The notes beneath the pieces are model-generated. The model did no database searches. It saw only the letters and a program-made list of their open reading frames with translations, and was not told where the DNA came from. From contig JACCWM010000200.1 in the NCBI GenBank assembly GCA_013697635.1, forward strand, positions 1 to 46,834: a stretch of DNA of 46,834 bases, written 5' to 3'. A program made the position numbers and the translations under genes. Of the stretch, positions 31,997 to 37,640 are shown one piece after another. This DNA comes from Lujinxingiaceae bacterium. GTDB lineage: Bacteria > Myxococcota_A > Bradymonadia > Bradymonadales > Bradymonadaceae. Positions within the stretch are counted from its first letter, which is position 1, and every line of letters starts with the position of its first letter.

Positions 31997-33157
31997 TTAG
32001 AAGCGCCCGAACAGGCTGACACCGGCCTGACCGCGGCCGGCGGCTGGCGCCAGCTTGACGCTCGCGCCCGCAGCGTTGTCCGGGGCGCTGCTGCTGCCCG
32101 CGAGCCATTCCCAGCTCAAAAGGCCGATGCCGGTGCTCATCAAGACGCCTCCGAGCACGCTGGTCGTGATCGCGGCACCGGCCGTGTCGTAGACTTCGGG
32201 GCAGCGCGAGAATGAACCGTCAACACAAGCCGAGTCTCCGTCGTATCGCGCCAGCACGATGCCCGTCGCGAGCAGCGAAGCGCCCGACAAGGCGGCGATC
32301 CAACCCCAGACCGCGCGGCTGCTGCCCATACGATCGATCGGCCCATCGCCGCGGCTGACGACCGAGCGCGGCGCCGGCGCACTCTGGCTCAAGTGTACTC
32401 GCAACAAGATCAATTCCGGTGAGCTCTCGCCGACGATGACGGCCTCGGTCAAGCCGCGGTGGCCTTCGAGCACGAAGCGCAGCTCGTGGCGGCCCTGATC
32501 GACGGGGATCGTGACATCGCCTTTGCCGATCAAGTTCTCATCGAGGTAGATCGCCGCCTCGGCAGGCACGACGCTGACGCGAAGGCGCACGGTGGTGCCC
32601 TCGCGATCATCGATGGGCTTTTCAACGGGCTTTTCAACGGGCTTCTCGGCCCGCGGCTCGGCATCGACCACGACGCGCTCAGGGATGGCCGTGGCTGAGA
32701 GCAGGTTGTTCAGCGAGCGCGAGTAGCTCTTGGCCACCTCGGCTCGCCCGCAGAGCTCACAGGCGCCCTTGATGCTGTTGAGCACGTTGCCGCTTCGCAG
32801 ATCGTACAAGGTCAGCGTCCAGTCGTAGATCTGTGATTCGCCGGCAAACTGCATTGTAAAGCCCGTGCGCGCATCCAAAGAAGCGCCGGCTTTCTTGAGG
32901 CAGTCCGAGGTAAAACAATCGCGCACGATCGGATTAAGCCTTGCGCGTGCCTTGTCGGCGTCGATGAACGACCAGCCCGTTCGCGCGGCAAAGGTCTGCG
33001 CGGTCGCCTCTTCGATGTCGGCGCGAACGCGCGCGTCGACGCCGCCGGCGATCTCCAACTGTAGGCCGGCCACGGTCTCGGCGGCAACCGGCGCCGCGAG
33101 CGCAAGGCTCGCCAAGACGCCCGCGATCAGAAACGAATAGCGCGCAGATACTGTCAT
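31997..33157 (-). CDS. Secreted PEGA-domain protein with two C-terminal membrane helices
   Basis: 386 residues from the ATG at 33157 (AGGA five bases upstream), one base overlapping the murI stop; the ATG at 33160 is also possible. A signal peptide ends near 'APVAAE'. Residues about 25-165 form a domain with four Cys ('RDCFTSDCLKKAG' and 'GACELCGRA') that may pair outside the cytoplasm. A Glu-Lys-Pro-Val repeat (about 172-183) links to a PEGA domain (about 192-262, 'VSVVPAEAAIYLDENLIGKG'). Two hydrophobic helices follow at about 285-306 and 328-350, and the protein ends in Phe. It resembles the TPR protein downstream of the kinase in its two helices and C-terminal tail. Function unknown. Confidence 0.82.
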   Translation of the reverse strand: MTVSARYSFLIAGVLASLALAAPVAAETVAGLQLEIAGGVDARVRADIEEATAQTFAARTGWSFIDADKARARLNPIVRDCFTSDCLKKAGASLDARTGFTMQFAGESQIYDWTLTLYDLRSGNVLNSIKGACELCGRAEVAKSYSRSLNNLLSATAIPERVVVDAEPRAEKPVEKPVEKPIDDREGTTVRLRVSVVPAEAAIYLDENLIGKGDVTIPVDQGRHELRFVLEGHRGLTEAVIVGESSPELILLRVHLSQSAPAPRSVVSRGDGPIDRMGSSRAVWGWIAALSGASLLATGIVLARYDGDSACVDGSFSRCPEVYDTAGAAITTSVLGGVLMSTGIGLLSWEWLAGSSSAPDNAAGASVKLAPAAGRGQAGVSLFGRF

Positions 33158-34011
33158 CATGTTCCTACCGTCCTACTGGTCATTGCGCTCATGTCGACGA
33201 TGTCGACGTGCTCGCAGCTAAGGATCTCACCGCCGAAAAAGCGCGACGCCGTGCTCACGAAACCATCGGGGATATCGGTCAAGAGGAAGCGGCGCTGGCC
33301 ACAGGAGCCCTCGGCGCGAAGCAGGCCCTGGGCCTGCAACGTCTCTTTGAGAGACTGCGCCGTGGTGGCCGCTGAGTCAAGCAAGGTCACGGCGCCGGCG
33401 ATCCGACGCGCGACCACGCGCGCGATCGCCTCGCCAAGCAACGGATAGTGTGTGCAGCCCAAGATCAACGTGTCGACATCGTGGGTTTGCAGGCCCACCA
33501 GATAGCTCTCAATGATCGTCTCGGCCACGCTACCCGATGTCCAACCCTCCTCGGCCAAAGGCACGAGCAGCGGGCAGGCCACCTGATGCACGGTCAGCGC
33601 CGCATTGATCGCGCACAGTGTCTGCGGATAACTCTGGCTGAGCACGGTGCCCCGTGTGCCCATCACGGCGATCACCCCGGTTTTGGTCAAAGCCGCCGCA
33701 CGGCGCGCCACGGGCTCGACGACGCCGACAATCGGCAGCGCGTGGCGCTCGAGCAAGGCCGGCAGCGCATAGGCCGTCGCCGTATTGCAGGCCACGACCA
33801 GCGCCTTGATGTCCATGGACCGAAGCATCTCGGTGGCGTTGAGCGCATAGCGGCGCACCGTGTCCGCGCCCCGGTTGCCATAGGGCACGCGCGCCGTATC
33901 GCCCAGATAGATCACGTTCTCCGAGGGCAACGCCTCGACCACGGCGCGCATCACCGTCAGGCCACCGACTCCGCTGTCGAAGATTGCTATGGGTCGATCG
34001 TTTCGGTTCAT
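33157..34011 (-). CDS. murI: Glutamate racemase
   Basis: 284 residues from the ATG at 34011, the position where homologues start ('PIAIFDSGVGGLTVMRAV'). Both catalytic cysteines are present: Cys75 in 'VVACNTATA' and Cys186 in 'LGCTHYPLL', with Asp12 and His188 beside them. It supplies D-glutamate for peptidoglycan. The ribosome site is weak. It is the first gene of a two-gene unit with the PEGA protein and diverges from the envelope cluster that begins at 34169. Confidence 0.96.
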   Translation of the reverse strand: MNRNDRPIAIFDSGVGGLTVMRAVVEALPSENVIYLGDTARVPYGNRGADTVRRYALNATEMLRSMDIKALVVACNTATAYALPALLERHALPIVGVVEPVARRAAALTKTGVIAVMGTRGTVLSQSYPQTLCAINAALTVHQVACPLLVPLAEEGWTSGSVAETIIESYLVGLQTHDVDTLILGCTHYPLLGEAIARVVARRIAGAVTLLDSAATTAQSLKETLQAQGLLRAEGSCGQRRFLLTDIPDGFVSTASRFFGGEILSCEHVDIVDMSAMTSRTVGT

Positions 34012-34168
34012 CACAACACGCCGCCAAAAATCAACCGTGGGCTGGACTGCCACTCTGGCGCACTTTAGGACGAATCAGCTGGAAAATCCACATTGTTGCA
34101 AGACGATCGGATATGCTACCGTGCTCGGGCGTGATCCGTCTTTGGATTTGTGGTCATCTGGAGTTGGT

Positions 34169-34939
34169 ATGCTGATTGGGTACAACAACGACGTCCAATA
34201 TCTGGGCAAGACTTTTCACATCCAGACCGAAGATCGGGGCAGCGGCAACGATCAAAGCATCGAAACCCAGCTCTTTCAGGGCGGTCAGATCCTGGATACG
34301 AAGATCACCTCCTACGTCGAGCACGTCGTGGGCCTCGAGGGCGACGATCGCACCAAAAAGATCAAAGCCCTGATGCAGGGCAGCCACAAAAGCTTGTACA
34401 AAAAACTCATGGCCGGCGAGTACAACGCGCTGGTTGGTCTGGCGCCGGTCGAGGGCAGCCACGAGGCCGACGAAGCCGACTTCACCCCCGGCCAGGATCG
34501 CGTTCCCGACGCCGCACGCATGGTCGAAGAAGAAGGAGCCACGGCATTTCCCGACCAGGGCATGGGCGATCACGTCGATCTGGCCTCGCTCAAGAGCAAG
34601 CTGGCGGGACTCAGCGGCGGCGCCGACGACGACGATGAGGAACTCAACGAGATCAGCGACAACGAGCCGGCCACGCAGGTCATGGATGCAAGCGCCCTGG
34701 GTGCGACCCAGCCGAGCTTGAGCTCGATGAGCGGCACCAAACCGAGCACGAAGACCTCGTCGATACCAGCATCGCTCAAGGCTGCGGCAGCCGCCAAGGT
34801 GGCCTTGCCTACACCGGTCAAAGAGTCTGTGGCCAGCCTGGACTTTGCGCCCAGCGGGGCCCTGGCCTGGAAAGGGTGCGAAGCTCCCGCTGAGGACTTT
34901 GCGCTGATCAAGCTCGTGGAGGCGTTTCTGCACGTCTGA
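34169..34939 (+). CDS. Unknown protein with conserved N-terminal module, first in the ftsEX cluster
   Basis: 256 residues from the ATG at 34169, with GGAG five bases upstream. An upstream open frame to 33989 overlaps murI and is not used. The first 90 residues ('GYNNDVQYLGKTFHIQTEDRG', 'IETQLFQGGQILDTKITSY') resemble an N-terminal module that I recall in several Myxococcota proteins of unknown function, with the recurrent 'QTED' and 'GG.IL..K.TSY' features. The middle is Asp/Glu-rich and low complexity; the end (about 225-256, 'AWKGCEAPAEDFALIKLVEAFLHV') is again more regular. No signal peptide or membrane segment, so cytosolic. It lies 24 bases before ftsE and may be a regulator or adaptor of that system; this is inference. 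Confidence 0.75.
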   Translation: MLIGYNNDVQYLGKTFHIQTEDRGSGNDQSIETQLFQGGQILDTKITSYVEHVVGLEGDDRTKKIKALMQGSHKSLYKKLMAGEYNALVGLAPVEGSHEADEADFTPGQDRVPDAARMVEEEGATAFPDQGMGDHVDLASLKSKLAGLSGGADDDDEELNEISDNEPATQVMDASALGATQPSLSSMSGTKPSTKTSSIPASLKAAAAAKVALPTPVKESVASLDFAPSGALAWKGCEAPAEDFALIKLVEAFLHV

Positions 34940-34963: not shown

Positions 34964-35683
34964 ATGATCTCCTGTTTTCATCTGTCGATAGCTCACCCTC
35001 GGGGGGAACACATGCTCTTCGAGGATGCCAGCTTCGAGATTGAAGCGGCATCGTGGACCGAGCTCATCGGCCCAGCAGGCTGCGGCAAGAGCTTGCTCTT
35101 CTCGGTGTTGAGCCTGCGTGCTAGCCCCCATCAAGGCCAGATCATCATCGCCGGGCGAAACCTCGATCGTCTCAAGGGTTCGGCCTATGCCGGGCTGCGT
35201 CGGCGTATCGGAAGCTGCAGCCAGTCTCTGGAGCTGCTCGAGCGGCGCACGGTGATCGAAAATCTCGTGCTGCCACTGGTGGTCCGTGGCGAAGCGTCGC
35301 GCGGTGCCGAGGAGGCCGAGCGCATGCTCGATGCGCTGCAGCTTCGCGCGCTGCGCGACGTGGCCGTGGGCCAACTGGGCTCAAACGAGCAGCGCGCGGT
35401 GGGCATCATGCGTGCCCTGATCGGTCGCCCGGCGCTGATCATCGTCGACGCCGGCCTCGATGGCCTCGAAGACTCCCTGGCGCGCGGTTTTGCGGGCTTG
35501 CTCAACGCCAGCCGCGCTCAGGGCAGCACGGTCATTTTGCTGGCCTCACAGCGCTGCACGTTTGCGCCCGACGGCGCGCGCCACCTGGTCATTCGCGACG
35601 CCGGCGTGCATGCCGGCGACGCCCACGCCCCGGCCGCTGTGGAGCCACCGGCAAGCTCGCGCGAAGGTGCGCTGCCATGCTGA
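34964..35683 (+). CDS. ftsE: FtsE-like ABC ATPase of the divisome, degenerate
   Basis: 239 residues; the ATG at 34964 gives the usual spacing to the Walker A motif (GPAGCGKS, 36-43). The Q-loop glutamine (Gln87) is present. Three ATPase features are not standard: the signature reads LGSNEQ (138-143) where FtsE has LSGGEQ, the Walker B catalytic Glu is Ala163 (VDA instead of ADE), and the H-loop His is Gln196. It should bind nucleotide but hydrolyse it poorly. Identity as FtsE rests mainly on context: an FtsX-like membrane protein overlaps it by seven bases and an EnvC-like gene follows. FtsEX links the Z-ring to peptidoglycan hydrolase activation in other bacteria. Confidence 0.8.
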   Translation: MISCFHLSIAHPRGEHMLFEDASFEIEAASWTELIGPAGCGKSLLFSVLSLRASPHQGQIIIAGRNLDRLKGSAYAGLRRRIGSCSQSLELLERRTVIENLVLPLVVRGEASRGAEEAERMLDALQLRALRDVAVGQLGSNEQRAVGIMRALIGRPALIIVDAGLDGLEDSLARGFAGLLNASRAQGSTVILLASQRCTFAPDGARHLVIRDAGVHAGDAHAPAAVEPPASSREGALPC

Positions 35684-36591
35684 GGCCGGCTCTACACACG
35701 TTTTACGACTGCAAGCTGCACACCGGCGTCGTCACCGTTTTGCTCGCCATTGCCTTGGTCGCGCCCGGCACGCTGGCGCTCTTCGCCGCCTGCAGCCACA
35801 GCGCGGCCAACCAGTGGTTGTCGAGTTATCAACCGATCGTCTATCTTGCGCCAGGCACCGCTGCCGAGGCCGCCCAAAAACTGGTCGACGAGCTCACGGA
35901 TTGGTCGACGGTAGCCGCCGTCACCCAGCGCACCCCTGCCGAGGCGCTCAAGCAGCTGCGCGAGCGCCTGGGCAACGATCACGTGCGCGAGCTCGGGATC
36001 ACCGAGGCGATGTTGCCGCAAAGTTTGATCTTGCGCCCTGCCATACCGGTGGCCGGCCACATCGATCTGGTCTCGCGTGTAGCCGGCCTCGAGGCGCGCA
36101 TGGAGGTCGCCTCGATCGACGTGCCCTCCTCGGGCGCGCTCAAGACCTTGAGCATTGTGCGCTGGGCGGCGATCGGCGCGGCGCTGCTGCTCGGCTTGCT
36201 CGGCCTGATCGCGAGCTACGTGATCATCGGATTTTTGCGCGCCTTGCAGAGAAACGAACAAGAAGAGCTCGCTGTGCTCGAGATCTTTGGCGCCGAAGAT
36301 CTCGTGCTGCGCCGCCCGTCGATTGTGCGCGGGCTGGCCGTCGGGCTTTGGGGCGGCGTGGGCGCGAGCATCGTGCTCGGAACAGCCTTGCTCACCTGGC
36401 AAGCCGACGTGGCCTTGGCCCTTGGCCAGATGAGCGTCTCGTCTTTGTGGGGTGCGCTGATCGTGGCCGCGCCCATGGCGATCGGCCCGCTCATCGGTCT
36501 GCTGGCCGGCATGAGCGTTGCCAGAAAGCCACTCGACCAAGATCGCGCCGCCTTGTTGCGCCCACTGCTTCGTTGGGGAGGTCTACGATGA
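35677..36591 (+). CDS. ftsX: FtsX-like permease subunit
   Basis: 304 residues, overlapping ftsE by seven bases and the envC-like gene by four (ATGA). Four hydrophobic segments are seen: one near the N-terminus (about 17-38) and three in the C-terminal half (about 170-190, 222-245, 263-280). Between the first and second lies an outer loop of about 130 residues, the FtsX arrangement that contacts EnvC. The stretch after helix 2, 'RNEQEELAVLEIFGAEDLVLRRPSIVRG', matches the cytoplasmic coupling helix block of FtsX ('R..EI.I..LVGA....IR.PF...G'). Membrane partner of FtsE. Confidence 0.88.
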   Translation: MLRPALHTFYDCKLHTGVVTVLLAIALVAPGTLALFAACSHSAANQWLSSYQPIVYLAPGTAAEAAQKLVDELTDWSTVAAVTQRTPAEALKQLRERLGNDHVRELGITEAMLPQSLILRPAIPVAGHIDLVSRVAGLEARMEVASIDVPSSGALKTLSIVRWAAIGAALLLGLLGLIASYVIIGFLRALQRNEQEELAVLEIFGAEDLVLRRPSIVRGLAVGLWGGVGASIVLGTALLTWQADVALALGQMSVSSLWGALIVAAPMAIGPLIGLLAGMSVARKPLDQDRAALLRPLLRWGGLR

Positions 36592-37640
36592 TGACGAATT
36601 TGCCCGTGCGCTCGGCGCTGCTTTGGGCCGTGCTGCTCGCCGGTGTGGCCGCCGCCTCGACGGCGCTCGCACAGCCCTCGACCTTTGTCGTGCTCGACGA
36701 GACCGAGGCACGCATTGCCTTCTTTGAGGCCGAGGCGCGCGCGACAAGCGCCGAGTTGGTCGAGCTCTCGCGCCGACTCGAGCTGCATACTCACGATGCC
36801 GATACGGCCCAGCGCGCGACCGTCAAGCTGCAGCGCGACACGACCAAACGCATGGCGAGCTGGGAGCGCGCCTGGCGCGCGATCGAGCGCGACGAAGGCC
36901 ACTGGAGCGTCGGCGCCGGCTCGGATACCCGCCAGCTCCTGAGCGCGGCCCAGCCCAAGGCGCTGGCCACGATGGCCCCCGAATTCGCGCTCCTGCGCAC
37001 GGTCCACCAGGACCGCCAGCGCGTCGACCTGCTGCTGGTGCAAAACCTCAAGCTCGGCGTCGAGCTCGCGCAAAACACGGCGCGCAAGAAGGCGGCAGAA
37101 CGTGAGCGCGAGGTGGTCGTTGAGCAGGCAAAATCACCCCAGCAGCGCGCGCGCGCCAGAGCCGAGCTCGACAAGAGCGAGGCCGAGCTCGCCGAAATGC
37201 TCGACACGATGACCCGAAACCAGACGGCTCAAGACTTTCATCGCCTCAAGGGCACCCTGGTGGCGCCGGTCAGCGGCCAGCCCACGCACCCCTTTGGGCC
37301 ACGAAAGCAGCGCGAGTCGATGAGCTACGTGCGCCACACCGGCCTCACCTACCAGGTTGCGGTGGGCACGAGCGTGCGCGCCGTTGCCTCGGGTCTCGTC
37401 GTGCTCGCCCAGCGCTTCGAAGGCTACGGCAACCTGGTGATCGTCGATCACGGCGCCAACTACCACTCGGTTTACGCCCACCTCGAGAGCATCGAGGTGG
37501 GCATCGGAAAGCAGCTCGCGCGAAACGAGGCCCTTGGAACTTCGGGCCAGACCGGTAGCATCGAGGGACCCAAACTGTATTTCGAGCTGCGCCACGAGGG
37601 CCAGCCCATCGATCCAGCACCGTGGTTTCTGAAACGCTAA
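36588..37640 (+). CDS. envC: EnvC-like murein hydrolase activator (LytM domain without catalytic residues)
   Basis: 350 residues from the ATG at 36588 (GGAGG six bases upstream), overlapping ftsX by four bases. A signal peptide ends near residue 29. Residues about 35-215 are predicted coiled coil, as in EnvC, and 222-350 form a LytM (M23) domain ending 'YFELRHEGQPIDPAPWF'. The zinc-binding residues of active M23 enzymes are not all present: His250 is kept, but the Asp four residues on is Thr254, and the HxH pair is Lys329/Tyr331. This is the EnvC/NlpD type of inactive LytM factor that activates amidases. With FtsEX it should act at the septum; the target amidase is not in the window. Confidence 0.88.
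   Translation: MMTNLPVRSALLWAVLLAGVAAASTALAQPSTFVVLDETEARIAFFEAEARATSAELVELSRRLELHTHDADTAQRATVKLQRDTTKRMASWERAWRAIERDEGHWSVGAGSDTRQLLSAAQPKALATMAPEFALLRTVHQDRQRVDLLLVQNLKLGVELAQNTARKKAAEREREVVVEQAKSPQQRARARAELDKSEAELAEMLDTMTRNQTAQDFHRLKGTLVAPVSGQPTHPFGPRKQRESMSYVRHTGLTYQVAVGTSVRAVASGLVVLAQRFEGYGNLVIVDHGANYHSVYAHLESIEVGIGKQLARNEALGTSGQTGSIEGPKLYFELRHEGQPIDPAPWFLKR

Follow-up and report, generated by a model that had tools for sequence, protein, structure and literature searches.

FtsEX is usually described as an ATP-driven mechanotransmitter, and mutants that cannot hydrolyse ATP impair or block division in Escherichia coli. ATP binding without hydrolysis activates in Pseudomonas aeruginosa and has been proposed as the trigger in E. 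coli, in Mycobacterium tuberculosis it is hydrolysis and not binding that activates the partner of FtsEX, and activation of AmiB in Vibrio cholerae is reported to be nucleotide-independent (PMC11139282, PMC10694151). The non-hydrolysing E. coli D162N complex blocks septal synthesis through FtsA, with the N-terminal domain of FtsX forming one side of the contact by which dead FtsE exerts this block; ATPase-dead FtsEX nevertheless supports cell separation in the presence of NlpD, provided that it is unable to block FtsA (PMC7343993). In the E. coli structure FtsE contacts ATP through G40-T43, Q86, S139, G141 and H195, and FtsX through R78, R79 and R94 (PMC11491553). A search of the literature available to us found no report of a naturally degenerate FtsE, nor of FtsE or FtsX in Bradymonadales. 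Here we describe such an FtsE in a stretch of 46,834 nucleotides (the window) from a Lujinxingiaceae bacterium, whose family within Bradymonadales (f1 in our comparison) we take to consist of predatory bacteria.

A degenerate FtsE in a divergent ftsE-ftsX-envC locus

The three genes of the locus are open frames that overlap one another, and all three are divergent, since each of their products scores below its curated NCBIfam cut-off. The FtsE model TIGR02673 was the top of 153 NCBIfam matches to the first protein, at 114.6 bits against an equivalog cut-off of 264.85 that is itself passed in only 7 of 14 control-set genomes. The AlphaFold2 model of this protein (pLDDT 92.3) has an intact ABC fold, and its best match in the PDB is FtsE in the E. 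coli FtsEX-EnvC complex (8hd0_A, TM 0.92 by target). The second protein resembles FtsX most closely (TIGR00439, 98.5 bits, cut-off 255) and carries the FtsX extracellular domain, FtsX_ECD, above cut-off, together with the conserved FGA of the coupling helix; an FtsX profile (A4) finds the solved FtsX 8tzj_C at 3.7e-24. The third matches the EnvC model PRK11637 at 91 bits, below the cut-off of 270, and Peptidase_M23 at 95.7 bits, and the corresponding profile (A3) matches V. cholerae EnvC (8tzk_E) across positions 26-351.

Within the ABC domain the Walker A motif, Asp162 of Walker B and the Q-loop glutamine, Gln87, are present. The catalytic set is thus reduced to K41 and D162, with E163, H195 and the LSGGE signature missing. 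A sequence-only reading of this DNA had reported alanine at the position of the Walker B glutamate and LGSNEQ in place of the signature, both of which we read in the window. It was also right that the H-loop histidine is missing, but not that Gln196 replaces it; an ungapped alignment places the histidine on Ser195, with no histidine nearby.

Table 1. Features of the locus in window coordinates, with conservation counted over the 19 ftsE genes recovered from f1.
Feature	Position	Strand	Evidence or remark
murI	33157-34053		
romY, conserved upstream neighbour	34169-34939	+	NF053858, 89.8 bits, cut-off 50
ftsE, degenerate FtsE, 239 aa	34964-35683	+	single ORF, TIGR02673 best match
Walker A, GPAGCGKS, residues 36-43, kept	35069-35092	+	Gly and Lys of GxGK invariant, 19/19
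ABC signature site, LGSNEQ (residues 138-143) for LSGGEQ	35375-35392	+	G140 0/19, G141 3/19
Walker B, Asp162 kept, catalytic Glu replaced by Ala163	35435-35452	+	D162 19/19, E163 0/19
H-loop, TVILLASQR, no His, Ser195 at the His site	35528-35554	+	H195 0/19
ftsX, 304 aa, 7-base overlap with ftsE	35677-36591	+	TIGR00439, FtsX_ECD
envC-like, EnvC with degenerate LytM	36588-37640 (start at 36588 or 36591)	+	PRK11637, Peptidase_M23

The losses are shared by the whole family and are under selection

We compared 21 genomes of f1, one per species, including that of the window (G000, 99.45% complete in 213 contigs). Eighteen of them, the window included, have an ftsE adjoining ftsX, and a nineteenth gene was recovered by profile search and inspection of the locus (L086 in G012). 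There the degenerate ftsE is followed by an ORF at the ftsX position to which the FtsX model is blind at E 1e-8; the FtsX of this genome is very divergent. No degenerate ftsE was found in G001 and G006, both of them fragmented, with about 900 contigs in the one assembly and 1,270 in the other. As reference we used 44 columns showing 95% conservation or more across 109 FtsE sequences from outside f1, numbered after what we take to be the E. coli FtsE sequence.

All 19 genes carry the same catalytic losses, and alignment of related FtsE, by which the sequence-only reading could have been refuted, gave no f1 homologue with intact residues. G35, G40, K41, R78, G82, A151, P156, D162 and G187 are invariant in f1, with Q86 and G38 kept in 17 of 19 sequences and R79 in 14. 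E163, H195, T194, G140, Q144, R145, P164, T165, G166 and N167 are kept in none and G141 in three, the signature and H-loop columns being aligned across a large divergence. The A-loop tyrosine that stacks against adenine and the D-loop have also gone. Comparing six nucleotide-binding columns that are kept with 14 hydrolysis, signature, D-loop and H-loop columns that are lost gave a Fisher p of 2.6e-5, for column sets of our own choosing. Set against the contacts in the E. coli structure (PMC11491553), these counts indicate that in f1 the phosphate loop and an FtsX-coupling arginine are invariant and the side that serves hydrolysis and carries the signature has been lost.

New near-invariant residues have also arisen in f1, namely W31, E33, C85, P104, V106 and R108, of which P104 and R108 are invariant. 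Position 163 holds glycine in 13 sequences, alanine in four, serine in one and aspartate in one, and the histidine position holds arginine in 17, with serine in the window and threonine in L025. This arginine, or another base, might substitute in a slow hydrolysis of ATP, and residual ATPase activity is known for Walker B glutamate mutants of ABCB1. We regard slow hydrolysis as distinctly unlikely, given that the window itself carries serine, that no conserved acid replaces E163, and that the D-loop and the Gly-Gly of the signature have been lost along with the glutamate.

The ratio dN/dS for ftsE is 0.06-0.12 in pairs among three congeners, where dS, at 0.40-0.56, is unsaturated, and f1 FtsE is therefore constrained and under purifying selection. 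This bears on whether the gene could be a pseudogene, the product of sequencing error or a decaying relic. The complete loss of ftsEX in sister lineages (below) would fit a relic; 19 species with open frames, this dN/dS and residues conserved specifically in the clade speak against it, and we rejected pseudogene and sequencing error on the number of species and the dN/dS, leaving this explanation next to no weight.

Orthology of FtsE, with no intact second copy found

The gene order murI-romY-ftsE-ftsX-envC is common to f1 and families f2, f3 and f7, and FtsE is intact in f3 and f7. The placing of murI and romY beside ftsE is a linkage conserved across families of the class, and it ties the gene of a motility regulator to the division operon. 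In a tree with the other nucleotide-binding domains (NBDs) of the window genome as outgroup, f1 forms a single clade (100/100) that is sister to f2 (97/81) and lies inside FtsE. The f1 stem is long (1.82), which makes the tree alone weak, and the fold and the synteny are needed as support for orthology.

To set the background, we read 104 FtsX-linked FtsE loci outside the order, drawn from a sample of 235 genomes belonging to the phylum and from a further search that followed it. Catalytic loss is absent in 101 of these, two of which are cut before Walker A. The three departures belong to three other families: the histidine is asparagine in L144 (G094) and arginine in L168 (G216), and in L166 (G125) the Walker A lysine, the glutamate and the histidine are lost. 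Degeneration of FtsE is thus rare and, from the tree, arose more than once. With 19 of 19 genes carrying the losses in f1 and intact relatives almost never doing so, the losses are not due to chance.

We saw no intact second ftsEX in the window genome, as the sequence-only reading had asked, and a search with the FtsX model revealed no second FtsX-type locus there, the next FtsX match scoring 36 bits. More than 50 ABC NBD matches are present in this genome, and heterodimeric ABC proteins commonly have degenerate sites (PMC7756269), so FtsE might pair with an intact NBD belonging to a different ABC system to give one working composite site. We judge such a heterodimer very improbable. In 26 genomes of the order there was no NBD over the FtsE-model cut-off, several of the contigs with the closest NBDs also bear matches to Lol/MacB-type permeases, and the presence of just one FtsX gene points to a symmetric complex.

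EnvC, the amidase and FtsA

The EnvC-like protein combines the coiled coil of EnvC with a degenerate LytM domain. As the sequence-only reading had it, the second zinc ligand is missing, the aspartate being threonine (Thr254 when counted from the ATG at 36588, Thr253 from 36591), and the HxH pair reads KLY. That reading had treated the loss of catalytic residues from both the ATPase and the LytM factor as unusual, which holds for FtsE only. The LytM domain is degenerate in EnvC of all the relatives that we compared, throughout the class, and for this reason we do not count an inactive EnvC as unusual; the EnvC half of the finding is ordinary. About 190-240 residues, signal peptide included, precede the LytM domain in f1. 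The AlphaFold2 model shows two long helices forming a hairpin and a third helix of 24 residues (183-206) before LytM; at this place E. coli EnvC carries a restraining arm of 50 residues (PMC7668044).

The partners of the pathway were also examined. Amidase_3 gives exactly one match in every f1 genome, that of the window included, with the exception of G008 (86% complete), and FtsA scores above its cut-off in 19 of 21 f1 genomes and in 51 of 57 of the class. We rejected loss of the amidase and loss of FtsA as explanations on these counts.

A graded series in sister lineages

The sister family f2 shows further stages. In L036 Walker A and the glutamate are kept, with cysteine in the H-loop; L035 lacks the Walker A lysine and the histidine; and L197 (G021) has lost most of Walker A (GGRAEARAA there), the glutamate and the histidine, yet remains an open frame beside ftsX, as L035 also adjoins ftsX. 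In L207 (G022), also of f2, romY is followed directly by an EnvC of which only the LytM part is left, and ftsEX is absent from the interval. Three f4 loci (L199, L202 and L204, from G027, G030 and G036) read murI-romY-envC, again with no ftsEX between, and their EnvC matches only the end of the profile, starting at position 175-183. The coiled coil of EnvC is therefore lost where ftsEX is deleted and kept in f1. The proteins encoded at these three loci and at L207 may be LytM amidase activators that are free of FtsEX.

Families f4, f5 and f6 gave no FtsX match at the threshold we applied, at which very divergent copies such as that of G012 could be missed; the FtsX model at E 1e-14 matched nothing in f5 (G028, G034, G037, G040, G042, G044, G046 and G048) or in G031 of f6. 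In the stretches read from the f5 genomes and G031, romY, where found, lies away from murI. Across the class the series runs from intact FtsE through a degenerate signature and H-loop and loss of Walker A to deletion of ftsEX with a trimmed EnvC, and may represent a stepwise loss of dependence.

This series bears on whether f1 FtsE could be a pure structural scaffold that binds no nucleotide, keeps its phosphate loop for folding and statically holds EnvC. The f2 genes that lack the Walker A lysine or most of the motif beside a retained ftsX would suit such a role, as would the loss of the same lysine in another family (L166) and of the A-loop tyrosine in f1 itself. Set against this, G35, G40, K41 and D162 are invariant and Q86 nearly so in f1, while most other catalytic columns have drifted, and we consider the scaffold unlikely, though the foremost of the alternatives.

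Discussion

We put a probability of roughly 0.6 on f1 FtsEX being a non-hydrolysing complex, either fixed in its state or set by nucleotide, by which EnvC is held at the division site. FtsE would be a conserved pseudo-ATPase in which the NBD fold, phosphate loop, Mg-coordinating aspartate and the arginine that grips the coupling helix of FtsX have been retained, and loss of the catalytic glutamate, the H-loop histidine, the Gly-Gly of the signature and the D-loop would leave it unable to turn over ATP. FtsEX-EnvC would still assemble, keeping the coiled coil of EnvC, and with it the LytM domain that activates the amidase, at the site of division. Its state would probably be either set by nucleotide binding alone or fixed, and timing would come from recruitment or from other partners. 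Because the fold and the grip on FtsX are kept and the hydrolysis residues are lost, the complex most likely holds EnvC without ATP turnover; it is from these residues that we infer the absence of hydrolysis, the nucleotide binding and the EnvC-holding role.

The sequence-only reading had proposed an ATP-gated or static scaffold. The losses, the retained phosphate loop and FtsX contact, the purifying selection and the search that found no intact second copy bear out its premise, but between gated and static the sequence points both ways, as the Walker A glycines and lysine are invariant and the adenine-stacking tyrosine and signature Gly-Gly are lost. Without the A-loop aromatic and the Gly-Gly it is harder to argue for a normal ATP-closed dimer, and the residual ATPase reported for ABCB1 with both Walker B glutamates mutated counts against a non-hydrolysing complex, as does the role of hydrolysis in M. 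tuberculosis. In favour of such a complex are the activation by ATP binding in P. aeruginosa, the similar trigger proposed in E. coli, the cell separation that ATPase-dead E. coli FtsEX supports under the conditions given above, and the EnvC coiled coil, which f1 has kept.

Some rewiring must also be assumed in f1, because in E. coli D162N blocks septal synthesis via FtsA and FtsA is present here. In alignments of the f1 FtsX profile with the solved FtsX proteins, the match begins only at about residue 62 of the E. coli and residue 46 of the V. cholerae protein, and absence of the N-terminal contact to FtsA could make a non-hydrolysing FtsE tolerable.

A more far-reaching proposal, which we offer tentatively and hold to be somewhat less probable than not, is that the Bradymonadales NBD has been re-specialised into a regulator of EnvC that senses a ligand or a partner and does not hydrolyse ATP. 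FtsEX would then serve division without ATP turnover, as one step in the series at whose end, in sister lineages, EnvC is free of FtsEX. The invariant P104 and R108, the near-invariant W31, E33 and C85 and the arginine at the H-loop would be the residues concerned. At least 19 species of f1 appear to divide with a naturally hydrolysis-dead FtsE, and these variants allow the disputed trigger of EnvC, be it the binding of ATP, its hydrolysis or simply recruitment, to be tested without mutants.

Compared with FtsEX-EnvC of E. coli, P. aeruginosa and V. cholerae, the f1 system is alike in gene order, fold, FtsX coupling helix, EnvC coiled coil with degenerate LytM, and amidase gene, and unlike in that its FtsE lacks Glu163, His195, the signature Gly-Gly and the D-loop. 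The N-terminal region through which E. coli FtsX contacts FtsA (PMC7343993) is likewise missing from the f1 profile. Like the laboratory mutants E163Q and D162N, f1 FtsE is expected to bind ATP and not to hydrolyse it; each of those, however, carries one engineered change and impairs E. coli division, whereas f1 FtsE is natural, with several losses and new conserved residues. The degenerate nucleotide-binding sites of the heterodimeric ABC exporters TAP, TmrAB and CFTR have similarly lost the Walker B glutamate, often with a changed H-loop, and kept Walker A, but each of these proteins retains one working site where a homodimeric f1 FtsE would have none. In its EnvC the window follows the LytM activators of the EnvC type (EnvC, DipM), which have also lost their zinc ligands, and there is nothing unusual in it.
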